Positions 36,694 to 49,269 of a stretch of DNA of 64,000 nt are shown here, piece by piece. The notes under the pieces were generated by a model. That model saw only the letters and a list, made by a program, of their open reading frames with translations. It was not told the DNA's origin and searched no databases. Source of the DNA: Acidovorax sp. DW039 (GTDB lineage: Bacteria > Pseudomonadota > Gammaproteobacteria > Burkholderiales > Burkholderiaceae_C); contig NZ_AP029019.1 in NCBI RefSeq assembly GCF_037101375.1, forward strand, positions 1,116,001 to 1,180,000, read 5' to 3'. The position numbers and the translations under genes were made by a program. How positions within the stretch are numbered: the stretch's first letter is position 1; the number at the start of each line of letters is the position of its first letter.

Positions 36694-36837
36694 TCGCTTA
36701 CCTGCCCCAGGGCGCAGAATGGCCTTTGCCGCCCAGCCTGCCTGAGTGCCTTTCTTGGTGCACGGCGGGCGCACGTTGCCGGGTGGCTGTGCGCAGCCCG
36801 CTTCCTTCCAACCCTTTTGACTGAAGAGACAACACCG

Positions 36838-38121
36838 ATGCAGATCGAAACCCTTGCCGTTCATGCGGGCTACAGCCCCGACCCCACCACCAAGGCGGTG
36901 GCCGTGCCCGTCTACCAGACCGTGGCCTATGCCTTTGACAGCGCCCAGCACGGTGCAGACCTGTTCGATTTGAAGGTGCAGGGCAACATCTACACGCGCA
37001 TCATGAACCCCACCACCGATGTGCTGGAAAAGCGCGTGGCGGCGCTCGAGGGTGGCATTGCCGCGCTGGCCGTCGCATCGGGCATGGCGGCCATCACCTA
37101 TGCCATCCAGACCATTGCCGAGGCGGGCGACAACATCGTGTCGGCCAGCACGCTGTATGGCGGCACCTACAACCTGTTTGCCCACACGCTGCCGCAGCAG
37201 GGCATCACCACCCGCTTTGCCGATCCGCGCGACCCTGCCAGCTTTGCGCAGCACATCGACAGTCGCACCAAGGCCATCTTCATCGAATCCATTGGCAACC
37301 CGTTGGGCAACGTGACGGACATTGCCGCGCTGGCCAAGGTGGCTCATGACCACGGCGTGCCTCTCATCGTGGACAACACTGTGCCCAGCCCCTACCTGCT
37401 GCGCCCCATTGAGCACGGGGCCGACATCGTCGTGCACTCGCTCACCAAATACCTGGGCGGCCACGGCAACAGCGTGGGCGGCGCGATTGTGGACAGCGGC
37501 AAGTTCCCCTGGGCCGAGCACAAGGCACGCTTTCCGCGCCTGAACGAGCCCGATGTGAGCTACCACGGCGTGGTCTACACCGAAGCCCTGGGCCCTGCCG
37601 CCTACATTGGCCGCGCACGGGTGGTGCCGCTGCGCAACATGGGTGCCACGCTGGCGCCGCTCAATGCCTTCCTCATCCTGCAAGGCATTGAAACGCTGGC
37701 CCTGCGCATGGACCGTATTTGCGAAAACACGCTGGCCATTGCCCAGTATCTGCAAAGCCACCCCAAGGTGGAATGGGTGCGCTACGCAGGCCTGCCTGAC
37801 CACCCGGACCATGCGCTGGTGCAGCGCCAGCTGGGCGGCAAGGCCTCGGGCATTTTGAGCTTTGGTCTCAAGGGCAGCGATGCCGACCCGCGCGCCGCCG
37901 GTGCGCGCTTCCTGGACGCACTGCAGCTCTTTACCCGCCTGGTCAATATTGGCGATGCCAAGTCGCTGGCCACCCACCCGGCATCCACCACCCACCGCCA
38001 GCTCGACCCGCAAGAGCTGGCCAAGGCCGGGGTGAGCGAGAACATGGTGCGCCTGTCAGTGGGCATTGAGCACATCAACGACCTGCGTGCTGATTTGGCC
38101 CAGGCGCTGGAGAAGGTGTAA
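36838..38121 (+). CDS. metY: O-acetylhomoserine sulfhydrylase-type enzyme
   Basis: This is a 427-residue PLP enzyme of the Cys/Met metabolism family, O-acetylhomoserine aminocarboxypropyltransferase branch. Start ATG 36838 ([18 protein letters not shown]). [54 protein letters not shown] and [18 protein letters not shown] (the last with the PLP lysine) are diagnostic. It makes homocysteine from O-acetylhomoserine and sulfide, or takes methanethiol. It is preceded by a sulfur motif and followed by a bidirectional terminator. Confidence 0.93.
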
Positions 38122-38288: not shown

Positions 38289-39200
38289 TTACTGCTTGCC
38301 TTTCCAGGGCACCAGTACCCGCTCTGCCAGGCGCATGACGAGCGAGAAGGAGAAGGCCAGGGCTGCAATCACGCCAATGCCCACAAACACCGCGTCGGTA
38401 GCCAGGAAGTGCGAGGCCGACATGATCATGTAGCCGATGCCCCGGGTGGAGGCGATCAGCTCGGCCGCCACCAGCGTGCCCCAGCCTACGCCCAGGGCAA
38501 TGCGTATGCCGGTGAGGATCTCGGGCAGGGCCGAGGGCAACACGATGTGGGTGAACAGCTGCCTGCGGGTGGCCCCCAGGGACAGGGCTGCGTTGACCCG
38601 CTCCAGCGGCAGGGCGCGCACACCGGCCTGGGCCGACAGCACCACGGGCGCGAACATGGCCAGGGCCAGCAGGGCGATCTTGGAGGTCTCGCCAATGCCC
38701 AGCCAGATGATCATGAGCGGCAGGTAGGCCAGTGGGGGCAGGGGCCAGTAGAACTCGATGGGCGCATCGAGCACGCCCTTGGCCCAGCGGTTCAGACCCA
38801 TCAGCAGGCCCAGCGGCACACCCAGGCCGATGGCGATGACGGCGGCGCTGACGATGCGTGTGAGGCTGGCGGCCACGTGTTCCCACAGCGTGGCGTTGGC
38901 ATAGCCTTCGGTAAAGATGGTCACGCCCGTGGCCCACACCTCGGCAGGCGTGGGCATGAACAGGCTGGGCACCCAGCCGGTCTGCGCCACCAGCCACCAG
39001 GTCAGCAGCAGGGCCAGCGCGGCGCCGATGCTGATGGGTACGGTGGAGCGCTCGCCCACGCCAAAGCTCCGGGGCTTGACGGTGCGCGGGGCGGGAGGGA
39101 TGGGCGCAGGGGCCGGGGCCACTGCATCGCTGTACCCATCGCCGTAATCGTCGCCTTTTTCTGCCGTGGGCAGCAGGTAGTTCAACACCAGGTCGTTCAT
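38289..39200 (-). CDS. tauC: Taurine ABC transporter permease
   Basis: This is a 303-residue permease of the TauC/SsuC group with six predicted membrane helices after a Pro-rich N-terminal region. The EAA-type loop ([48 protein letters not shown]) and [19 protein letters not shown] are characteristic. Its start overlaps the tauB stop by 4 bp. Assignment to taurine rather than another sulfonate rests on tauA and the divergent tauD. Confidence 0.9.
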
Positions 39201-40003
39201 GCCAGGGCTCCTTGTTCCGTGGGTGCTGCGGTGTGCTCTGCGCTGTGGACGATGTCGCGGATCTGCTCGCGCAGCTGTGCAAAGCCGGGCAGGGTCTTGA
39301 TGGCCTTGGCGTTGCCTTCGCGCGCGAAGCGTTGCACATAGTCCAGATCAAACCGGGCCACGATGCGCCCTGGGCGCGGCGACATGACGATGACCTCGGT
39401 GCCAAGGAAGATGGCTTCCTCGATGGAGTGGGTGATGAAAAAGACCTGCTTGCCTGTGCGCTGCCACACGGACACGAGCAGTTCCTGCATCTGCTCGCGG
39501 GTCATGCTGTCCAGCGCGCCAAAGGGTTCGTCCATGAGCAGGATGTCAGGGTTGGGGGCCAGCGCACGGGCCAGGCCCACGCGTTGGCGCATGCCGCCAG
39601 ACAGCTCATAGGGCGCCGCATTGGCAAAGTCTTGCAGGCCCACCAGTTCGAGCAGCTCCAGCGCACGCTCGCGCCGTTGGGCGCGGCTGGCACCGGCAAA
39701 TTGCAGGCCCAGGGCGACGTTCTCGGCCACGGTCTTCCAGGGCAGCAGGGTGTCCTTTTGGAACACCACGCCCCGGTCTGCACCAGGGCCGGTGATGGGG
39801 CGGCCATGCAGCGTGATGCTGCCTTCAGACAGTGGCAGAAACCCCGCCATGGCATTGAGCAGGGTGGATTTGCCGCAGCCTGAAGTGCCCAGGGCCACCA
39901 CAAAGCCGCGTGGCGGGATGTCGAGCGAGACCCGGTCCAGCGCCTGCACCGGGTGGCCGTCGCGGCCTTCAAAGAAAACGCTGGCGTTGCGTACAGACAG
40001 CAT
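39197..40003 (-). CDS. tauB: Taurine ABC transporter ATPase
   Basis: This is a 268-residue nucleotide-binding subunit. It has Walker [10 protein letters not shown] (Thr in place of the usual Pro), Q-loop [11 protein letters not shown], signature LSGGMRQR, Walker B ILLMDEP and H-loop ITHSIEEA. It is coupled to tauC by the ATGA overlap. The 145-bp gap to tauA contains a structured dispersed repeat. Confidence 0.92.
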
Positions 40004-40148: not shown

Positions 40149-41150
40149 TTACTTCAGCGCTGTGGGCGTGACGTACTTGGCGTAGCTGCCCTGCACCTGC
40201 GAGATCTTCTTTTGCTCCTTCAGGAAGGCGGAGGTCTCCTTCAGGATCTTGGCCACGCCAGACTTTTCGCCACCGCCCAGCCAGGCGTCGGTCACCTGCT
40301 CGCTGCGGGGCACCAGGTTCAGGTTCTTCAGCGCCGAAGCGTGATCGGCCGGATTGCCACCCAGCAGCTTGGCCAGCAGCTTGGTGTTTTCGCTGTCGGG
40401 GCCCCAGGCGGCCTTGTCGGTGGCAAAAGACTGGCTGTATTTGTCGATGACGGCGGCGTAGTTCTTCAGGAACTCGGGGTGCTCTTTGGCAAATTTGCCC
40501 GTAGCCACCCAGGCGCTGAAGGTGGGGGCGCCTTTTTCAGCCACGTCTTTGGAGGTGACCAACACGGTGCCGTTCTTCTTGAGTTCGGTGAGAGCGGGGT
40601 CCCACACAAAGCCACCGTCGATGTCGCCCCGGTTGTAGGCGGCCACGATTTCGGGCTGTGGAATGGCCAGCACCGTCACGTCTTTTTCGGTCAGGCCCAG
40701 GTTTTTGATGAGGGCCAGCAACTGGTAGTGGTCGGTGGACACGGGCGCAGCGGCCAGGCGCTTGCCCTTGAGGTCGTTCACGCTTTGGATGCCCGAGCCG
40801 TTGCGCACCACCAGGGCCTCGTCTGTGCCCGAGATGGAGGCCAGGTAAAAGCCCTGAATGTCCAGCCCGCGCGAAGCGGCCGCAGCGTAGGGGCTGGAGC
40901 CCACATAGCCCACCTGCACATCGCCCGAGGCAATGGCGGCCACTACGTCAGCGCCCGAGTTGAACTTGCGAAAGTCGATCTGGTAGCCCGTGGTCTTGGC
41001 GAAGTCGCCATTGGCAATGGCCACGGCCGAGGGTAGGGCGTCGGTCTGGTAGCCCACCACCACGTTCTTGTCAGCGGCCAGGGCGCTGAAGGCGCTGGCC
41101 AGGGCGAGGGTGCCTGCGGCGGCGAGGGCAAAGGGTTTCCAGAGTTTCAT
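40149..41150 (-). CDS. tauA: Taurine ABC transporter substrate-binding protein
   Basis: This is a 333-residue receptor with a Sec signal (MKLWKPFALAAAGTLALASAFSALA). VVVGYQTDALPSAVAIANGDFAKTTGYQIDFRKFNSGADVVAAIASGDVQVGYVGSSPYAAAASRGLDIQGFY and YNRGDIDGGFVWDPALTEL are characteristic of TauA. It is the first gene of tauABC, divergent from tauD. A sulfur motif lies about 100 bp upstream. Confidence 0.93.
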   Translation of the reverse strand: MKLWKPFALAAAGTLALASAFSALAADKNVVVGYQTDALPSAVAIANGDFAKTTGYQIDFRKFNSGADVVAAIASGDVQVGYVGSSPYAAAASRGLDIQGFYLASISGTDEALVVRNGSGIQSVNDLKGKRLAAAPVSTDHYQLLALIKNLGLTEKDVTVLAIPQPEIVAAYNRGDIDGGFVWDPALTELKKNGTVLVTSKDVAEKGAPTFSAWVATGKFAKEHPEFLKNYAAVIDKYSQSFATDKAAWGPDSENTKLLAKLLGGNPADHASALKNLNLVPRSEQVTDAWLGGGEKSGVAKILKETSAFLKEQKKISQVQGSYAKYVTPTALK

Positions 41151-41355: not shown

Positions 41356-42189
41356 ATGACCTTGCACATCCAAGCCCTGGGCCCTGCCATTGGCGCCCTT
41401 GTCACCGGCATTGACCTGACCCAGCCCGTGAGCGACGCCCAGCGCGATGCGCTGCTGGCCGGGCTGCTCCAGCACCACGTGCTGTTCTTTGAGAACCAGC
41501 CCGTTACCCCCGTGCAGCAGCGCGACCTGGCGCGGCGCTTTGGCGAGCTGCACATCCACCCCGTGTACCCCACGCACCCGGATGCGGTGGAGATCATCGT
41601 GCTGGACACCGATGACAACAACCCGCCGGACAACGACAACTGGCACACCGACGTGACCTTTATCGACAAGCCGCCCATGGGCGCGCTGCTGTCGGCAAGG
41701 CATTTGCCCCCGTCGGGCGGCGACACGCTGTGGGCCAGCGGCATTGCGGCGTACGAGGCGCTGTCCGAGCCGCTGCGCAAGTTTCTCGATCCGCTGCATG
41801 CCGAGCACAGCTTTGTGCAGTCCTTCCCCGCCCGGCGCTATGCCCGCACGCCCGAGGAGCGCAAGGTGTGGGAGAGCGCTGCAGCCAAGTACCCCGACAT
41901 TCCGCACCCCGTGGTGCGCACCCACCCCGTCAGCGGCAAGCGCGGGCTGTTCGTCAACGAAGGCTTCACCAGCCGCATCGTCGAGCTGGACAAGAAGGAG
42001 AGCGACGCGATCCTGGCCTTCTTGCGGGTGCACATCGCCAAGCCCGAATTCACCGTGCGCTGGCGCTGGAAGCAGTACGACCTGGCCTTCTGGGACAACC
42101 GCCTGACCCAGCACTACGCCACGGTGGACTACCTGCCCCACCGCCGTGTGATGCACCGCGCCACCGTGCTGGGCGATGTGCCGTATTGA
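41356..42189 (+). CDS. tauD: Taurine dioxygenase
   Basis: This is a 277-residue Fe(II)/2-oxoglutarate-dependent dioxygenase. GALVTGIDLTQPVSDAQRDALLAGLLQHHVLFFENQP, NWHTDVTFIDKPPMGALLSA (first metal His and Asp) and AFWDNRLTQHYATVDYLPHRRVMHRAT (second His and the substrate/2-oxoglutarate Arg) are family motifs. It releases sulfite from taurine as aminoacetaldehyde forms. It is divergent from tauABC. Confidence 0.95.
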   Translation: MTLHIQALGPAIGALVTGIDLTQPVSDAQRDALLAGLLQHHVLFFENQPVTPVQQRDLARRFGELHIHPVYPTHPDAVEIIVLDTDDNNPPDNDNWHTDVTFIDKPPMGALLSARHLPPSGGDTLWASGIAAYEALSEPLRKFLDPLHAEHSFVQSFPARRYARTPEERKVWESAAAKYPDIPHPVVRTHPVSGKRGLFVNEGFTSRIVELDKKESDAILAFLRVHIAKPEFTVRWRWKQYDLAFWDNRLTQHYATVDYLPHRRVMHRATVLGDVPY

Positions 42190-42205
42190 AGCCCCTCTGT
42201 GTGTC

Positions 42206-42266
42206 TTTTGCTATGAAATAAATAGCTGCTTGCGCTTGATGAATAAGCGCTAGAGCCTTTTTTGAC
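42206..42266 (+). repeat. Dispersed palindromic repeat, copy 4
   Basis: ATAGCTGCTTGCGCTTGAT and GAATAAGCGCTAGAGCC with flanking TTTTGCT and TTTTTT give the cleanest family copy. It lies between tauD and the rhodanese gene. Confidence 0.82.
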
Positions 42267-42280
42267 TGAAAGCCCCTCCC

Positions 42281-42760
42281 ATGACCACCGCATTGGATAC
42301 CCAAGCCCTTGCTCCTGAACTGCAAGCCATTCACACCGCTGCCCAGGCCCAGGGCCTGACCTATGCCGGAGGCGTGCCGCCCGCACTGGCCTGGCAACTG
42401 GTGCAAGCCAGTCAGGCGGTGCTGGTGGATGTGCGCTCGACCGAAGAGCGCAAGTTTGTCGGCCATGTGCCGGGCAGCCTGCATGTGGCCTGGGCCACTG
42501 GCACATCGCTGGTGCGCAACCCGCGCTTCGTGCGCGAACTGGAAGCCAAGCTGGCCAAGGACGGCGGCAAGGACGCCGTGGTGCTGCTGCTGTGCCGCAG
42601 CGGCAAGCGCTCGGTGCTGGCGGCAGAGGCTGCAGCGGCTGCGGGGTTTGCCCATGTTTTCAATGTGCTTGAAGGCTTCGAGGGGGAGATCGACGCGCAA
42701 CAGCACCGGGGCGGCAGCGATGGCTGGCGCTTTCATGGCCTGCCCTGGGTGCAGGACTGA
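42281..42760 (+). CDS. Single-domain rhodanese of the encapsulin operon
   Basis: This is a 159-residue rhodanese. AVLVDVRSTEERKFVGHVPGSLHVAW and LLLCRSGKRSVLAAEAAAAAGF (active-site Cys loop CRSGKRS) are typical. It is the first gene of a run leading to serine acetyltransferase, an XRE regulator, the shell and the desulfurase. Rhodaneses are recurrent neighbours of family 2A encapsulins and are thought to help move persulfide sulfur. Confidence 0.9.
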   Translation: MTTALDTQALAPELQAIHTAAQAQGLTYAGGVPPALAWQLVQASQAVLVDVRSTEERKFVGHVPGSLHVAWATGTSLVRNPRFVRELEAKLAKDGGKDAVVLLLCRSGKRSVLAAEAAAAAGFAHVFNVLEGFEGEIDAQQHRGGSDGWRFHGLPWVQD

Positions 42761-42795
42761 CCCTGACTGACCAGAACTGACCAGAACTGACGGAC
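42761..42795 (+). repeat. Short tandem repeat before cysE
   Basis: CTGACTGACCAGAACTGAC followed by CAGAACTGACGG is a roughly 11-bp unit (CCAGAACTGA) repeated in the rhodanese-cysE gap. It could vary in number by slippage. Confidence 0.6.
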
Positions 42796-42813
42796 GGCAC
42801 CGAGGACCACGCC

Positions 42814-43746
42814 ATGGCCATTTTTGACATTGAACAGATCGTGCAGTCGCTGCACGGCGTGCGCCGCGAATGGCGCGATGCGCAAAAGCGATCGCAGGAG
42901 CCCGGCGGGCGCGAGTTTCCGTCGCGCGATGCGCTGGCGCATGTGGTGGAGCAGCTGAAGGGCGCGCTCTTTCCCATGCGGCTGGGCCCGCCCGACCTGC
43001 GCCAGGAGAGCGAAGATTTTTACGTGGCCCACACGCTGGATGCCGCCCTGCACACCCTGCATGCGCAGATGGTGCTGGAGCTGAAATACACCCACCGTCA
43101 CCGCCCGCGTGACCCGCAGGACGTGGAGCTTCTGGCGCTGAAGGCTGCGCAGGACCTGGCCCAGTCGCTGCCCGACATCCGCCGCCTGCTCGACAGCGAT
43201 GTGCTGGCCGCCTACCAGGGCGATCCGGCGGCGGGCAGTGTGGACGAGGTGCTGCTGTGCTACCCCGGCGTGCTGGCCATGATCCACCACCGCATTGCGC
43301 ACCGCCTGTACCTGCTGGGCCTGCCGCTGCTGGCGCGCATTGTGTCGGAGCTGGCGCACAGCCAGACGGGCATTGACATCCACCCCGGTGCGCAGATTGG
43401 TGCGGGCTTTTTCATCGACCACGGCACGGGCGTGGTGATTGGCGAGACGGCGGTGATTGGCAAGCGCGTGCGCATTTACCAGGCCGTGACGCTGGGGGCC
43501 AAGCGCTTTCCCACCGATGCCGAAGGCGTGCTGCACAAAGGCCTGCCCCGCCACCCGCTGGTGCAGGACGACGTGGTCATCTACGCGGGCGCCACCATTT
43601 TGGGCCGCGTCACGCTGGGCAAGGGCGCAGTGATTGGCGGCAACGTGTGGGTTACGCACGACGTGCCTGCGGGCGGCCATGTCACGCAGGCCAGTGCGCA
43701 GGCGTCGGGGCGCTTTCCGTCCATCCTGGCCGAGGTGTCGTTGTGA
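42814..43746 (+). CDS. cysE: Serine O-acetyltransferase, EpsC/long type
   Basis: This is a 310-residue left-handed beta-helix acetyltransferase. The C-terminal half carries the hexapeptide repeats: GIDIHPGAQIGAGFFIDHGTGVVIGETAVIGKRVRIYQAVTLGAKRF, then ATILGRVTLGKGAVIGGNVWV. The N-terminal helical domain is longer than in E. coli CysE, as in the SAT variant found with family 2A encapsulins. It supplies O-acetylserine for cysteine synthesis, the substrate of the downstream desulfurase. Its stop overlaps the XRE gene start. Confidence 0.93.
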   Translation: MAIFDIEQIVQSLHGVRREWRDAQKRSQEPGGREFPSRDALAHVVEQLKGALFPMRLGPPDLRQESEDFYVAHTLDAALHTLHAQMVLELKYTHRHRPRDPQDVELLALKAAQDLAQSLPDIRRLLDSDVLAAYQGDPAAGSVDEVLLCYPGVLAMIHHRIAHRLYLLGLPLLARIVSELAHSQTGIDIHPGAQIGAGFFIDHGTGVVIGETAVIGKRVRIYQAVTLGAKRFPTDAEGVLHKGLPRHPLVQDDVVIYAGATILGRVTLGKGAVIGGNVWVTHDVPAGGHVTQASAQASGRFPSILAEVSL

Positions 43747-44012
43747 CCACGCTCGTCAAAGGCTTTGGCATAGCAGTGCGCCAGTCGCGCGAGGCGCAGG
43801 GCTGGTCGCAAGAGCGGCTGGCCGAGCAGTCGGACCTCAATCGCTCGTACGTGGGCGAGATCGAGCGCGGCAGCGTCATCGCATCGCTGCACACCGTCGA
43901 AAAGCTGGCCAGCGCGCTGGGCGTGGCGCCCTCGGTGCTGGTCACTCGCGGCGAGGCGGTGCACCAGCGGCAATTGGTGCGCGGCCTGCAGTTGGCGGCT
44001 ATAGCCTGTTGA
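43743..44012 (+). CDS. XRE-type HTH regulator of the encapsulin operon
   Basis: This 89-residue protein starts at a GTG overlapping the cysE stop (GTGA). It is a single Cro/C1-type helix-turn-helix: GIAVRQSREAQGWSQERLAEQSDLNRSYVGEIERGSVIASLHTVEKLASALGVAPSVL. It probably controls this operon. A sulfur-related ligand domain is absent, so it may act as a simple repressor or with a partner. Translational coupling to cysE is a notable arrangement. Confidence 0.85.
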   Translation: MTTLVKGFGIAVRQSREAQGWSQERLAEQSDLNRSYVGEIERGSVIASLHTVEKLASALGVAPSVLVTRGEAVHQRQLVRGLQLAAIAC

Positions 44013-44122
44013 AGCGGGGCGCCAGAGCTTTGACACTGCATTGATCGCTGGCTGGCTGGCTATGGCGCACCCCGTTGACTGGAGGGGGACTGCGTGGGCT
44101 GGCGGGCTTTCTGATTCTTTCC

Positions 44123-44145
44123 TGTTTGTTTTCTTGTTTGTTTTC
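44123..44145 (+). repeat. Direct repeat in the encapsulin leader
   Basis: TGTTTGTTTTC occurs at 44123-44133 and again at 44135-44145, in a pyrimidine-rich leader 20-40 bp before the shell start. It may keep the leader unstructured. Confidence 0.55.
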
Positions 44146-44164
44146 AACCTGACGGAGTATTCAC

Positions 44165-45097
44165 ATGTCGGCAACAGTGGGCGGAACCACCGCACTCAGC
44201 GATAGCGGCGCACGGCAACTTGCCAACGCCACCAAAACGGCCCCGCAGCTTTCCACCATCTCGCCCCGCTGGCTCACGCACCTGCTGCAGTGGGTGCCGG
44301 TGGAGGCGGGCATCTACCGCCTCAACCAGGTCAAGAACCCCGAGGCCATCAAGGTGGCGTGCACTGCCAAGGAGAAGGAAAACCAGCTGCCCCGCACCTT
44401 CGTGGACTACGAAGAGAACCCACGCGAGTACTTCCTGAACGCGGTGAGCACGGTGCTGGACGTGCACACCCGCATCTCCGACCTGTACAGCAGCCCGCAC
44501 GATCAGGTCAAAGAGCAGCTGCGCCTGACCATCGAGACCATCAAGGAGAACCAGGAAAGCGAGCTGATCAACAACGCCGACTACGGTCTGCTGGCGCAGG
44601 TGACGGACGAGCAGCGCATCTTCCCGCTGACGGGCGCGCCCACACCCGACGACCTGGACGAGCTGCTGACCAAGGTGTGGAAGGAGCCCGCCTTCTTCCT
44701 GGCCCACCCGCTGGCGATTGCCGCCTTTGGCCGCGAAGCCACGCGCCGGGGCACGCCACCGCCCACGGTGAGCCTGTTTGGCTCGCAGTTCATCACCTGG
44801 CGCGGCGTGCCGCTGATCCCGTCGGACAAGGTGCCGGTGGCCGATGGCAAGAGCAAGATCTTGCTGCTGCGCGTGGGCGACAAGCGCCAGGGCGTGGTGG
44901 GCCTGTACCAGCCCGGCCTGCCGGGCGAGCAAAGCCCTGGCCTGTCGGTGCGCTTCATGGGCATCAACAACCATGCGATTGCGTCGTACCTGATCTCGCT
45001 GTACTGCTCGCTGGCCGTGCTCACGCCCGACGCGCTGGCCGTGCTGGACGATGTGGAGATCAACAAGTACCACGACTACCCAGACACCTACAAATAA
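44165..45097 (+). CDS. Family 2A encapsulin shell protein (SrpI-like)
   Basis: This is a 310-residue HK97-fold shell protein. STISPRWLTHLLQWVPVEAGIYRLNQVK, the long E/K-rich segment AVSTVLDVHTRISDLYSSPHDQVKEQLRLTIETIKENQESELINNADYGLL, LFGSQFITWRGVPLIPSDKVPV and the C-terminal LAVLDDVEINKYHDYPDTYK match family 2A encapsulins (SrpI group). These assemble into icosahedral compartments around a cysteine desulfurase. A good GGAG ribosome site precedes the ATG. The cargo gene follows 12 bp after the stop. No cNMP-binding insertion is visible, which separates it from family 2B. Confidence 0.92.
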   Translation: MSATVGGTTALSDSGARQLANATKTAPQLSTISPRWLTHLLQWVPVEAGIYRLNQVKNPEAIKVACTAKEKENQLPRTFVDYEENPREYFLNAVSTVLDVHTRISDLYSSPHDQVKEQLRLTIETIKENQESELINNADYGLLAQVTDEQRIFPLTGAPTPDDLDELLTKVWKEPAFFLAHPLAIAAFGREATRRGTPPPTVSLFGSQFITWRGVPLIPSDKVPVADGKSKILLLRVGDKRQGVVGLYQPGLPGEQSPGLSVRFMGINNHAIASYLISLYCSLAVLTPDALAVLDDVEINKYHDYPDTYK

Positions 45098-45109
45098 GGT
45101 GGCCGCGCG

Positions 45110-47113
45110 GTGACGAACCTTTCTCACACTTCCTCGATCCCGTCGGGGGTTGCGCCACAGTCGCCGCTGGACACGGCGGCGCTGGCCCGCATGGCATCGG
45201 CCCTGTTTGCGGCCCTGCCGGGCGAGTCGCCTGACTTGTCTGGCGCCGCCTCTGCCGTGCCGCGCCCTGCTGCGGCGGGCTTTCCACCCGGCGTGCAGGC
45301 CCCCGTGAACCTGGCCCCTGCCGGCTCGCCCCTGGCCAGCCCGGCCGGGCTGGGGCCCTCGGTGCCAGGCACGCCCATCCCGCAAGGGCAGATTCCGGGC
45401 AGCAACCTGCTGCCTGCATCGCCTACGCCGGTGCTGTCGCTGGCGCACCGCGCCCCTGCGCTGGTGCCGCATGCCTCGGCAGGCAATGGTGTGCCCGACA
45501 CCGTGCTCAGCACCTTGCCTGCCTACGAGCCGCGCCTGGGTTCGGGCGTGTTGGGTGTGGCACCGGTGGCTTCACTGCCTTCCGCGCCCGCAGCCGCTGC
45601 GCCGTACTACTTTGTGGGTGAGCGTTCTGGCAGCGCAGCGGCGCAGTCTGCCCAGGATGTGGATGGGCTCGATGCCTTGTCGCGCCTGCCCTTCCAGTCG
45701 TTCGATGCGGCCCATGTGCCCCAGGTCACATCGCCCACGGCAGGCCCTGGCGTGCCCAGCACGGTGCCATCGGTAGAGCCGCAGTTCTACTTTGCCAACG
45801 CGGTGGTGCTGCCCGGCGGCTACACCACGCCCGGCCACCCCGCGGCGCAGCGGGCGGGGGCGGTGCCTGCGGTGGCGGGCAGCGCGCACCCTGCGTTTGA
45901 TGTGCATGCCATTCGCCGCGACTTTCCGGTGCTGTCCGAGCGGGTAAACGGGCGGCCCCTGGTGTGGTTTGACAACGCGGCCACCACGCACAAGCCCAAG
46001 TTGGTCATCGACCGCATCAGCTACTTTTACGAGCACGAAAACTCCAACATCCACCGCGCAGCCCATGAACTGGCTGCCCGTGCTACGGACGCCTACGAAG
46101 GTGCCCGCCAGCGGGTGAAAAACTTCATCAACGCGCCGGATGTGAACGAGGTGATCTTTGTGCGCGGCACCACCGAGGCCATCAACCTGGTCGCCAAGAG
46201 CTGGGGCACGCAGCACATTGGTGAGGGCGACGAGATCATCGTCAGCAACCTGGAGCACCACGCCAACATCGTGCCCTGGCAGCAACTGGCCGCTGCCAAG
46301 GGGGCGAAGCTGCGGGTGATTCCGGTGGACGACTCGGGCCAGGTGCTGCTGGATGAATACCAGAAGCTGCTGAACAGCCGCACCAAAATCGTGTCCGTCA
46401 CGCAGGTGTCGAACGCGCTGGGCACGGTGGTGCCGGTCAAGGAGATCGTGGCCATGGCCCACCGGGCGGGTGCGAAGGCGCTGGTCGATGGGGCGCAGTC
46501 CATCTCGCACATGCGGGTGGACGTGCAGGACCTGGGCGCGGACTTCTTTGTCTTCTCGGGCCACAAGGTGTTTGGGCCCACGGGCATTGGCGTGGTCTGG
46601 GGCAAGCGCGAGGTGCTGGAGGACATGCCGCCCTGGCAGGGCGGCGGCAACATGATTGCCGATGTCACGTTTGAAAAGACGGTGTTCCAGCCCATCCCCA
46701 ACAAGTTCGAGGCAGGCACTGGCAATATTGCCGACGCTGTAGGCTTGGGCGCAGCCATCGACTACGTGAACCGCGTGGGCATCGAGAACATTGCCCGCTA
46801 CGAACACGAGCTGCTCGACTACGGCATGCATCACCTGGGCGCCATCCGGGGTGTGCGGCTCATTGGCACAGCGGCCCACAAGGCCAGCGTGATGTCGTTT
46901 GTGCTGGCGGGCTACACCACCGAAGAAGTGGGCAAAGCGCTGAACGAAGAGGGTATTGCCGTGCGCACCGGTCACCATTGCGCGCAGCCCATCCTGCGCC
47001 GCTTTGGGGTGGAGACCACGGTACGTCCGTCGCTGGCGTTCTACAACACCTTGGACGAGATTGACCGGCTGGTGGCCGTGGTGCAGCGCCTGGCTGCGCA
47101 GCGCCGCGTGTGA
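45110..47113 (+). CDS. Encapsulin cargo cysteine desulfurase with disordered N-terminal domain
   Basis: This is a 667-residue protein. Residues 1-260 are low-complexity (Pro, Ala, Gly, Ser, Val) with islands of order: LDTAALARMASALFAAL (20-36), PYYFVGER (165-172) and QFYFANAVVLPGG (225-237). These are candidates for the shell-binding signals known for this class. Residues 261-667 are a type II (SufS/CsdA) desulfurase, with FDNAATTHKP, the PLP lysine in FSGHKVFGPTGIG (K486) and the catalytic cysteine in RTGHHCAQP (C624). It strips sulfur from cysteine. The start is GTG 45110, supported by AAGGTGG upstream. Confidence 0.93.
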   Translation: MTNLSHTSSIPSGVAPQSPLDTAALARMASALFAALPGESPDLSGAASAVPRPAAAGFPPGVQAPVNLAPAGSPLASPAGLGPSVPGTPIPQGQIPGSNLLPASPTPVLSLAHRAPALVPHASAGNGVPDTVLSTLPAYEPRLGSGVLGVAPVASLPSAPAAAAPYYFVGERSGSAAAQSAQDVDGLDALSRLPFQSFDAAHVPQVTSPTAGPGVPSTVPSVEPQFYFANAVVLPGGYTTPGHPAAQRAGAVPAVAGSAHPAFDVHAIRRDFPVLSERVNGRPLVWFDNAATTHKPKLVIDRISYFYEHENSNIHRAAHELAARATDAYEGARQRVKNFINAPDVNEVIFVRGTTEAINLVAKSWGTQHIGEGDEIIVSNLEHHANIVPWQQLAAAKGAKLRVIPVDDSGQVLLDEYQKLLNSRTKIVSVTQVSNALGTVVPVKEIVAMAHRAGAKALVDGAQSISHMRVDVQDLGADFFVFSGHKVFGPTGIGVVWGKREVLEDMPPWQGGGNMIADVTFEKTVFQPIPNKFEAGTGNIADAVGLGAAIDYVNRVGIENIARYEHELLDYGMHHLGAIRGVRLIGTAAHKASVMSFVLAGYTTEEVGKALNEEGIAVRTGHHCAQPILRRFGVETTVRPSLAFYNTLDEIDRLVAVVQRLAAQRRV

Positions 47114-47211: not shown

Positions 47212-48303
47212 TCAATCCGTGTTCAGCCCACGCTCATACCAGCCCTTGCTGCGGTTGACGATGTGCACCACCAGCAGCATCACCGGCACTTCAATCAACA
47301 CCCCCACCACCGTGGCCAGCGCCGCGCCGGAGTGAAAGCCGAACAGGCTGATGGCCGCAGCCACGGCCAGCTCGAAAAAGTTGGACGCACCAATCAGCGC
47401 CGACGGGCAGGCGACGCTGTGCTTCTCGCCCACGGCGCGGTTGAGCCAGTAGGCCAGGCCCGCGTTAAAAAACACCTGGATGAGGATGGGCACGGCCAGC
47501 AGCGCAATGACGAGGGGCTGCGCCAGGATCGCCTCGCCCTGGAAGGCAAACAGCAGCACCAGCGTGGCCAGCAGTGCGGTGATGGACCAGGGGCCAATGC
47601 GCTGCAGTGCGGCGTCGAGCGCCGCCGGGCCACGCGCCAGCAGGGCGCGGCGCAGGGCTTGTGCGATGGCCACGGGGATCACGATGTACAGCACCACCGA
47701 AGTGAGCAGTGTGGCCCACGGCACGGTGATGGCCGACACCCCGAGCAGCAGCGCCACCAGCGGCGCAAAGGCCAGCACCATGATGCTGTCGTTGAGCGCC
47801 ACTTGCGACAGGGTGAACAGCGGGTCGCCACCGGTGAGGCGGCTCCACACAAACACCATGGCCGTGCAAGGCGCGGCGGCCAGCAAAATGAGCCCGGCGA
47901 TGTAGCTGTCGATCTGGTCGGCGGGCAGCCAGGGCGCAAACCAGTGGCGGATGAACAGCCAGCCCAAGAGTGCCATCGAAAACGGCTTGACCAGCCAGTT
48001 GACGACCAGCGTGACGCCAATGCCGCGCAGGTGCTGGCGCACTTCGCCCAGTGCGCCAAAGTCCACCTTCATCAGCATGGGGATCACCATCACCCAGATC
48101 AGCAAGCCCACGGGCAGGTTGACCTGGGCGATTTCCATGCGGCCCACGGCCTGGAAGACGCCGGGCCATAGGTGACCGAGCGCCATGCCCACCACGATGC
48201 ACAGAAACACCCAGACGGTGAGATAGCGCTCAAACACGCTCATGCTGCGGGTGTCTGGAAGATGCGCCGACGGGTGGTGATGAGGGGAGGCTGTGGTGGT
48301 CAT
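47212..48303 (-). CDS. acr3: Arsenite efflux transporter, ACR3 family
   Basis: This is a 363-residue ten-helix membrane carrier. MALGHLWPGVFQAVGRMEIAQVNLPVGLLIWVMVIPMLMKVDF, LILLAAAPCTAMVFVWSRLTGG (with the conserved Cys) and ACPSALIGASNFFELAVAAAISLFG are ACR3 signatures. It expels arsenite using the membrane potential. It is the last gene of an arsR-arsC-acr3 unit on the minus strand, 23 bp after arsC. Confidence 0.93.
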   Translation of the reverse strand: MTTTASPHHHPSAHLPDTRSMSVFERYLTVWVFLCIVVGMALGHLWPGVFQAVGRMEIAQVNLPVGLLIWVMVIPMLMKVDFGALGEVRQHLRGIGVTLVVNWLVKPFSMALLGWLFIRHWFAPWLPADQIDSYIAGLILLAAAPCTAMVFVWSRLTGGDPLFTLSQVALNDSIMVLAFAPLVALLLGVSAITVPWATLLTSVVLYIVIPVAIAQALRRALLARGPAALDAALQRIGPWSITALLATLVLLFAFQGEAILAQPLVIALLAVPILIQVFFNAGLAYWLNRAVGEKHSVACPSALIGASNFFELAVAAAISLFGFHSGAALATVVGVLIEVPVMLLVVHIVNRSKGWYERGLNTD

Positions 48304-48326
48304 GGGGTGTGGGGAGCAGAGATGCG

Positions 48327-48839
48327 TCAGTGCGTGGAAGCGGACAGCTCACGCGCCGTGCTTTGCAGCATGGCGTGCTGCAATTTGTCGGCAGGCAGGC
48401 TGATCAGCAGTGACAGGCGGCGCTGGATGTCGTGCAGGGTTTTGCGGAAGGCTTCCAGCTTTTGCGCCTCGGTGCCGTCACCGGCGGAAGGGTCTGCATA
48501 ACCCCAGTGGGCTGTGGCAGGGTGGCCGGGCCAGATGGGGCAGACCTCGCCTGCGGCGTTGTCGCACACGGTGATGATGAGGTCCATGTGGGGCGCATCG
48601 GGGGCCGCAAACTCGTCCCAGCTCTTGCTGCGCAGGCCATCGGTGGCAATGCCTGCATTGCGCAGCACCTGCAAGCCCAGCGGATGGGGCTGCTGGTTGT
48701 CTCGCGGGCTGCTGCCCGCGGAATAGGCCTTGAAACGCCCCTCGCCCATGGCGTTGAGTAGGGCCTCGGCCAGGATGCTGCGCGCTGAGTTGTGCGTGCA
48801 CAGGAAGAGGACGTTCAGGGGCGGGTGGGTGTCTGTCAT
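48327..48839 (-). CDS. arsC: Arsenate reductase, low-MW-phosphatase type
   Basis: This is a 170-residue protein of the thioredoxin- or glutaredoxin-coupled low-molecular-weight phosphatase class. LFLCTHNSARSILAEALLN is the CX5R phosphate/arsenate loop, and DLIITVCDNAAGEVCPIWPG carries the second and third redox cysteines. It reduces arsenate to arsenite for export by Acr3. Start ATG 48839. Confidence 0.92.
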   Translation of the reverse strand: MTDTHPPLNVLFLCTHNSARSILAEALLNAMGEGRFKAYSAGSSPRDNQQPHPLGLQVLRNAGIATDGLRSKSWDEFAAPDAPHMDLIITVCDNAAGEVCPIWPGHPATAHWGYADPSAGDGTEAQKLEAFRKTLHDIQRRLSLLISLPADKLQHAMLQSTARELSASTH

Positions 48840-48942
48840 GCAGGGCTCCGGGTGACCAGGATGGAATGCCTGGGCCTGTGGCCGAGGCGGGGATGCAGCA
48901 TTGGGCTTGGCGAAGGTGTCGGGGCTGTGAAAGCCCCGCAGA

Positions 48943-49269
48943 TCAGCATGCGCAGCCAGTTGGACCGGAGGCAGGCATGCAAGGTTGGCCCTGGCAGCAG
49001 TTTTCTGTGAGGTAGCTGATGAGAGCATTCATGCGATCAAACTGCGCGCGATAAATCAGGTTGCGGCCCGCACGCTCTTGCGCCACCAATCCTGCGTGGC
49101 TCAGCTCTTTGAGGTGGAAGGAGAGGGTGTTGGCCGCCACGCCCAATGTCTCGCTCAGGGCGGAAGGGGTCATACCTTCGCTGCCCGCCACCACCAGTGC
49201 CCGAAAGATTTCCAGCCGGGATGCTTGTGCCAGCGCTGCCATGGCTTTGACTGCTTCATTGATTTCCAT
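48943..49269 (-). CDS. arsR: ArsR-family arsenic-responsive repressor
   Basis: This is a 108-residue winged-helix protein. LAQASRLEIFRALVVAGSEGMTPSALSETLGVAANTLSFHLKELSHAGLVAQERAGRNLIYRA is the DNA-binding core. The usual ELCVCDL site in the recognition helix is absent. Instead the C-terminus has ENCCQGQPCMPASGPTGCAC, a cysteine cluster like that used for As(III) in other ArsR variants. An inverted repeat overlaps its start codon. Confidence 0.9.
   Translation of the reverse strand: MEINEAVKAMAALAQASRLEIFRALVVAGSEGMTPSALSETLGVAANTLSFHLKELSHAGLVAQERAGRNLIYRAQFDRMNALISYLTENCCQGQPCMPASGPTGCAC

Follow-up and report, generated by a model that had tools for sequence, protein, structure and literature searches.

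What kind of compartment is encoded beside the taurine genes of Acidovorax sp. DW039, which sulfur compounds would feed it and how is it controlled? These questions are raised by a block of five genes at 42281–47113 of a window of 64,000 nucleotides from contig NZ_AP029019.1, in whose positions all coordinates are given here. The block lies on the + strand and encodes a rhodanese, an EpsC-type serine acetyltransferase, an XRE regulator, a family 2A encapsulin shell and a cysteine desulfurase cargo. The picture that emerges is sound in outline: a known system, tied to sulfur scavenging by good genomic support, with a local peculiarity of the control region. The explanation that best covers the whole, and that is regarded as rather likely, is an operon for a caged desulfurase fed via taurine sulfur, with read-through from the taurine dioxygenase gene tauD.

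Identity of the five-gene block

The genes of the block and the profile models that they match are as follows.

42281–42760, + strand: rhodanese (PF00581, 53.9 bits), with a CRSGKRS motif whose cysteine is residue 105
42814–43746, + strand: EpsC-type serine O-acetyltransferase of 310 amino acids with an N-terminal extension (NF041874, 160.4 bits; cut-off 150)
43743–44012, + strand: XRE-type helix-turn-helix regulator of 89 amino acids (PF01381)
44165–45097, + strand: family 2A encapsulin shell of 310 amino acids (NF041162, 527.8 bits; cut-off 380; PF19307, 347.3 bits)
45110–47113, + strand: SufS-type cysteine desulfurase cargo (NF041166, 939.2 bits; cut-off 800)

A preliminary description of this DNA had proposed five genes on one strand within 4.8 kilobases (kb), and a family 2A encapsulin with a desulfurase. 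Reading frames and profile models bear out the former, and NF041162, NF041166 and both published cargo motifs bear out the latter. Sequence comparison supports assignment of the locus to a known kind, the family 2A encapsulin system with a cysteine desulfurase cargo. None of the five reading frames is interrupted, and the rhodanese, the acetyltransferase and the cargo retain the active-site motifs sought in them. The rhodanese and acetyltransferase genes are separated by 53 base pairs (bp), the xre start overlaps the acetyltransferase stop by 4 bp (GTGA) and the shell gene ends 12 bp before the cargo gene. The NF041874 match covers residues 127–290 of the 310 in the acetyltransferase, which does not reach the cut-off of the cysE model TIGR01172.

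The same arrangement is found among relatives, taken as the best 80 named loci from a longer list matched by the shell protein, a selection that makes them near relatives, mostly Comamonadaceae and Oxalobacteraceae by name. All five genes occur in the same order on one strand in 69 of the 80 loci. The other 11 consist of five cut by contig ends, five without an xre match and one without an acetyltransferase match.

The shell aligns with NF041162 over 295 of the 295 positions of the model. It also passes the family 2B shell model NF041163, by a narrower margin (418.7 bits; cut-off 400). A Pfam search of the 310 residues returned nothing besides PF19307, and the shell fits the type without a cyclic-nucleotide (cNMP)-binding domain. 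The nearest solved shell structures are 8t6r (555.7 bits, residues 9–310) and SrpI (6x8m). Origin from a phage capsid or prophage was considered and rejected on the strength of the curated family 2A model, 74% identity to SrpI and the conserved operon. In genome G003 the shell gene is matched as two overlapping pieces in different frames (C1:1338647-1339575), which may reflect a frameshift or a sequencing error.

The cargo retains its catalytic residues, the pyridoxal phosphate (PLP)-binding Lys486 in SGHK and Cys624 in HHCAQP, which are invariant in 34 aligned sequences. Its loading domain carries LARMASALFA at residue 25 and AAAPYYFVGE at residue 162, to be compared with the LARLANEFFS- and AASPYYFLDG-like motifs that the loading section of PMC8049743 gives for family 2A cargo. 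Loose patterns of our own for the two motifs match 56 and 53, respectively, of 79 cargo sequences from the loci, a set that includes truncated sequences and the partial copy from the DW039 genome itself (L001). The N-terminal ∼258 residues consist of proline, glycine, alanine and serine to 56%. AlphaFold2, run with 34 sequences and of modest overall confidence (mean predicted local score, pLDDT, 59.4), places most of this N-terminus below pLDDT 50, except for a helix at residues 22–33. The preliminary view of a disordered N-terminal domain of 260 residues holds as to length and general character, and needs qualifying for that helix and for residues 61–145. An alignment of 74 sequences, window included, shows good conservation of the latter and of a second FYF site at 226, after removal of six truncated or over-extended sequences, one of them the partial own-genome copy. 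Such conservation in relatives indicates that the ‘disordered’ N-terminus is not unconstrained.

Sulfur-acquisition genes around the shell gene

The block is bordered upstream by genes for sulfonate use.

36817–38121, + strand: metY, O-acetylhomoserine/O-acetylserine sulfhydrylase (TIGR01326, 638.8 bits; cut-off 495.1)
38289–39200, − strand, behind tauA: tauC, best match a taurine ATP-binding cassette (ABC) model, below its cut-off
39197–40003, − strand, behind tauA: tauB, best match likewise a taurine ABC model, below its cut-off
40149–41150, − strand: tauA, taurine-binding protein, divergent from tauD (TIGR01729, 323.9 bits; cut-off 304.25)
41356–42189, + strand: tauD, taurine dioxygenase (NF007104, 446.1 bits; cut-off 313; PF02668)

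The position beside tauD and metY in an organosulfur region, as first described, is confirmed: tauD is directly upstream of the encapsulin genes and co-directional with them, and 4.2 kb separate the rhodanese gene from metY further upstream, an interval that includes tauCBA on the opposite strand. The metY product is a possible user of sulfide and O-acetylserine. Among the products encoded in the sulfonate region, at ∼18–42 kb, are SsuA-family proteins and two monooxygenases, one of NtaA/DmoA type and one SsuD-like that falls below the SsuD cut-off.

Is this neighbourhood peculiar to DW039? A sample of 200 genomes was drawn from the taxonomic family, 39 of which carry the shell, and a gene was counted as linked when it lay within 20 kb of the shell gene; SsuA-family matches (E values up to ∼2e-39) and SBP_bac_8 matches were counted among the matches listed. 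On this basis an SsuA-family sulfonate-binding-protein gene is linked in 18 of the 39 genomes (0.76 expected), a sulfate-binding-protein gene in 16 (0.53 expected), a TauD-family gene in ten (0.56 expected) and metY in nine (0.56 expected). Any of the four is linked in 31/39 against 1.92 expected, and an SsuA- or TauD-family gene in 22/39 against 1.2 expected, with SsuA again among the matches listed. Counted by genus, a sulfur-gene link is present in 26 of 31. None of 200,000 random-placement draws reached the observed counts, in a model that ignores shared ancestry and carries no claim of a probability. Large accessory islands were considered as the source of the linkage: any of the four sulfur genes lies near recA as control anchor in 1/39 and near SBP_bac_8 genes in 6/150, compared with 31/39 for the shell, and SBP_bac_8 genes themselves are near the shell in 0/39, both SBP_bac_8 figures being among the matches listed.

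The pattern is also seen outside that family, where a gene for a sulfonate- or sulfate-binding protein lies no more than 20 kb from the shell gene in 7 of 12 family 2A genomes, against an expectation of at most 0.52. The figure is 1 of 5 for genomes with a family 2B-like shell, a call based on where the match begins and on a longer open frame. An Azospirillum plasmid carries a sulfonate transporter and TauD within 10 kb of the operon; a Methylosinus plasmid has no such sulfur genes among its annotated ones. In a further genome of the sampled family (G744), outside these counts, no sulfonate- or sulfate-binding-protein gene is among the matches listed on the shell contig. These observations support a sulfur context of family 2A shell genes beyond chance: the idea of a sulfur island is right and recurs. 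The passages of PMC8049743 on genomic context already place family 2A next to sulfur metabolism genes; the present counts add numbers for sulfur-acquisition genes.

The linkage raises the question of whether the sulfonate connection is specific. The preliminary description had tied the compartment to sulfonate-derived sulfur rather than to sulfate alone. The organosulfur tie holds as a genomic association and, locally, through tauD; ‘rather than sulfate’ does not hold as a family rule, since sulfate genes are linked too. It is about an even chance that the compartment belongs to a general sulfur-starvation response, in which nearness to sulfonate genes reflects shared regulation of all scavenging and the adjacency of tauD is incidental. 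The strong linkage of sulfate-binding-protein genes agrees with such a response, as do the induction of SrpI by sulfate starvation, reported in PMC8049743, and the finding that no match to the window tauD above 42% identity occurs in the flanks of the 80 named relatives. It is harder to reconcile with 12 genomes that have a sulfonate-type but no sulfate-binding-protein gene within 20 kb, SsuA being counted among the matches listed, or with the presence of a TauD-family gene directly before the rhodanese gene in the window and in 5 of 77 relatives.

In DW039 the two sulfate-binding-protein genes found in the genome are both more than 1.2 Mb from the locus and tauD is directly upstream, so that the local tie is to sulfonate. 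Adjacency to tauD as a rule of the family was rejected, as a TauD-family gene takes that place in just those five of 77 relatives, with 40–42% identity to the window tauD. Among the nearest upstream genes of 77 relatives and the window (n = 78) there are six of the TauD family, five luciferase-like monooxygenases, five NMT1-type binding proteins, three Cys/Met PLP enzymes and three NlpA-type lipoproteins, in a tally of the best 25 of 61 families with genes called by a simple composition rule.

Control elements in relatives and in DW039

How might such an operon be controlled? In relatives the region upstream of the rhodanese gene contains two conserved elements, a TTTTATTCGTTTG-like box (ga.TTTTtATTCGTTtG) in 70 of 78 regions and an operator-like palindrome (tTG.tGgCTATcGCCAtCaA) in 63 of 78, at a threshold set to the 99% level of shuffles and with a profile fitted to the same 78 regions. 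The box falls below threshold in eight regions and the palindrome in 15, so some relatives also lack one or both. Where both are present, their distance is exactly 40 bases in 33 of 61 regions. The elements carry over between clades: with training on Oxalobacteraceae, the profile picks up the box in 30/50 Comamonadaceae-like regions against 3/49 controls and the palindrome in 36/50 against 1/49, and the reverse training gives 14/19 against 1/19 and 17/19 against 0/19, respectively. The controls are stretches 1 kb further up; seeds were drawn from all loci together, and the comparison omits nine loci belonging to other groups.

The core of this palindrome occurs once more at the end of xre.

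43997–44006, no strand: GGCTATAGCC palindrome, proposed regulator site before the shell gene, intact within the last codons of xre

It is perfect in 35 of 81 regions and has at most one mismatch in 65 of 81, in a scan of 160 bases that leaves the window copy outside and counts it as a miss. Within the last six codons of xre, ATA is used for 61 of 62 isoleucine codons, compared with 164 of 5285 across the five genes (the 61 included), a bias that points to selection on the DNA itself. Judging from sequence patterns, XRE may bind the palindromes. The upstream palindrome is missing in 3/5 loci without an xre match between the acetyltransferase and shell genes (L028, L029, L074, L075 and L076) and in 12/73 others, a weak association (Fisher P 0.046); L028 keeps a near-perfect palindrome despite its lack of an xre match. 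In an Acidovorax locus (L009) whose XRE is 57% identical to that of the window, inspection by eye shows a different palindrome, GTGAACA-CAT-TGTTCAC, upstream of the rhodanese gene, and the usual profile reaches 11.7 bits only, at another place; operator and regulator look as if changed together.

The box profile was also run over 403 kb of the DW039 genome, made up of the window and 17 stretches, four of them chosen for their sulfur genes (L095, L096, L097 and L111) and 13 arbitrary. At 13 bits or more there are 17 matches, and for eight of them the gene that follows could be named: a second tauD, a 1-Cys peroxiredoxin, a sulfate-binding protein, an SsuD-like monooxygenase, an NMT1-type binding protein, an NtaA/DmoA-type monooxygenase, a class II aldolase-like gene and the shell gene. 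All eight lie within the window, L095 or L097, and they include every match of at least 16.8 bits, six in number; L096 and L111 have no match to the profile. The matches at L095:6023 and 7582 stand before two adjacent genes, those for the 1-Cys peroxiredoxin and the sulfate-binding protein. Of the eight, three are weak or in an awkward position, one inside a predicted gene (22048) and two inside the longest reading of their own gene (18048 and 33392). That the box stands alike before sulfate-binding-protein, 1-Cys peroxiredoxin, tauD and monooxygenase genes again agrees with a general starvation response, whereas its loss before the rhodanese gene in DW039 does not. A literature search on SsuR/CysB found no site to compare the box with; the box may be called CysB-like and the 1-Cys peroxiredoxin lsfA-like.

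In DW039 the rhodanese gene lacks both upstream elements (box −1.6 bits, palindrome 1.2 bits). Only 91 bp separate it from the end of tauD, and the place that the upstream elements occupy in relatives is taken by a repeat.

42205–42275, + strand: hairpin-forming dispersed repeat followed by a T run (RNA fold −17.6 kcal/mol, z −3.25)

A 12-mer of this repeat has 11 copies in the 403 kb, this one included, against 0.05 expected. Copies of the repeat were noted at 42216–42262 of the window, at L095:15807 and at L110:2277, and weakly on plasmids of Polaromonas, Pseudomonas and Agrobacterium. Further down, the gap between xre and the shell gene measures 152 bp, compared with a median of 79 bp in relatives, and holds a box match of 16.8 bits 37 bp before the shell start. 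Scans for sigma-70 promoters and terminators gave no more matches than in shuffles.

On the simplest reading, the ancestral control region was lost through a rearrangement that also brought the operon to its place behind tauD. With the control region gone and tauD in front, expression of the upstream genes most likely comes from read-through out of tauD, and the operon would most likely depend on this read-through plus an internal start before the shell gene. The preliminary phrase ‘full supporting operon’ fits the gene content, five genes in order; it does not extend to the controls of the rhodanese gene, which is without the box, operator-like palindrome and Shine-Dalgarno-like sequence that are common in relatives.

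The same evidence can be read as decay. The rearrangement may have cost the rhodanese gene its promoter, operator and ribosome site, so that the upstream half is decaying and only shell and cargo are expressed, from the internal start. The absent elements, the hairpin, the widened gap and the box-like match before the shell gene all accord with this proposal; the five intact frames and the retained active-site motifs speak against it, and decay is considered unlikely.

Several observations weigh against the preferred explanation. The hairpin between tauD and the rhodanese gene is terminator-like, although a consensus terminator scan did not flag it, and the rhodanese gene has no Shine-Dalgarno-like 4-mer, a feature of 70 of 75 relatives; read-through may therefore be weak and the upstream genes poorly made. 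By the same profile the tau promoter region has no box. Six of the 17 own-genome box matches (at least 13 bits) fall in arbitrary stretches with no gene assigned, the best at 16.2 bits. Around the 80 named loci, the flanks contain 12 box matches outside the operon, compared with 4–13 for ten permuted profiles; they have seven downstream genes, and the four checked in Pfam are two luciferase-like monooxygenases, a peroxiredoxin and a serine hydrolase. With the flank scan not above permuted profiles and matches in arbitrary stretches, the box is plausible, not proven, as a sulfur-starvation site. Finally, sulfate genes are as linked to the shell as sulfonate genes, and eight of the 39 genomes have no linked sulfur gene, at least two of them on short contigs (G068, 4.0 kb; G016, 42.7 kb).

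A wider proposal remains tentative and falls short of an even chance: that sulfur cages of Burkholderiales belong to a sulfur-scavenging regulon, with an activator box and an XRE palindrome in the 3′ end of xre, and that DW039 has been re-wired to tauD as a sulfonate-fed store.

Beyond the cargo gene, on the other strand, an arsenic-type cluster spans 47212–49269. It contains an ACR3 arsenite transporter (TIGR00832, 386.9 bits) and, by eye, a phosphatase-like small open reading frame (48327–49028; no NCBIfam match at 1e-30) and an ArsR-like regulator frame (48943–49269).

A proposed sulfur store and its known counterparts

What would the compartment do? By analogy with SrpI, the shell protein is expected to assemble into a T=1 cage ∼25 nm wide, into which the cargo would be loaded via its Pro/Gly-rich N-terminus, by the helix LARMASALFA and the PYYF motif. 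TauD would free taurine sulfur as sulfite, to be reduced to sulfide elsewhere in the cell, and the sulfide would be fixed on O-acetylserine from the operon's own acetyltransferase to give cysteine. The caged desulfurase would then take sulfur off cysteine as persulfide or elemental sulfur, to be kept in the cage, and the rhodanese would pass the stored sulfur on when needed, rhodaneses being sulfur carriers. In relatives the box upstream of the rhodanese gene probably mediates induction of the operon along with sulfur-scavenging genes, and the operon's own XRE probably represses it at the palindrome near the start site. In DW039 the upstream genes would be read through when the taurine genes are on, and shell and cargo may come partly from the internal start behind xre.

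Storage is predicted for this system from published models. In the portions of PMC8049743 concerned, sulfate-starvation induction and N-terminal cargo loading are described, storage is put forward as one option, and the discussion leaves the role of family 2A encapsulins open. In a different role, advanced in part of PMC8346489, the caged desulfurase would supply sulfur for making iron-sulfur clusters or cofactors under stress and would be no store, the shell limiting delivery to the system's own rhodanese. The prominence of rhodanese and acetyltransferase as the most enriched accessory genes in the operon survey of that paper, and their conservation here, are in keeping with a donor; the five-gene block has no iron-sulfur assembly gene, and cargo chemistry alone is not decisive. 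For DW039 this role appears doubtful.

Under the preferred account, a desulfurase store fed from taurine, read-through would make expression of the cage follow taurine use. Concrete handles on the activator of the cage, and on a possible sulfonate origin of its sulfur, come from the linkage and from the pair of conserved elements, and a natural strain that has lost the usual upstream region can usefully be compared with those that retain it. Literature searches on encapsulins with taurine or sulfonate returned no title joining the two, within the library searched and with supplements excluded.

Among known systems, the family 2A shell 8t6r (its molecule named Major membrane protein I) is the best match to the DW039 shell, for which storage is a prediction. 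We take 8t6r to be the sulfur-storage encapsulin of Acinetobacter baumannii, a system reported to store elemental sulfur. SrpI/CyD of Synechococcus elongatus PCC 7942 (PMC8049743; 6x8m, 6x8t) resembles the present system in its shell (74% identical by tblastn), in a SufS-type cargo with both N-terminal motifs and in its sulfur context; DW039 differs in that its shell gene is preceded, within a single block, by the genes for the rhodanese, the EpsC-type acetyltransferase and XRE, and further upstream by tauD. The family 2A desulfurase operons of PMC8346489 share the serine acetyltransferase and rhodanese as accessory genes, whereas its main text contains no words beginning sulfonate, ABC transporter or XRE. 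A parallel to the whole arrangement is provided by plasmid 3 of Variovorax sp. PBL-E5 (NZ_LR594673.1, L112), which comes from linuron-contaminated soil and carries the operon near a phosphonate carbon-phosphorus lyase cluster. It has the same five genes in the same order, a shell 92% identical to that of DW039 and, within ∼9 kb, genes for TauD, a luciferase-like monooxygenase and a CysB-family regulator. In contrast to the locus in DW039, it resides on a 553-kb plasmid, and its immediate upstream neighbours are, in place of tauD, genes for a CmcJ/NvfI-family oxidoreductase and a PLP-dependent enzyme.

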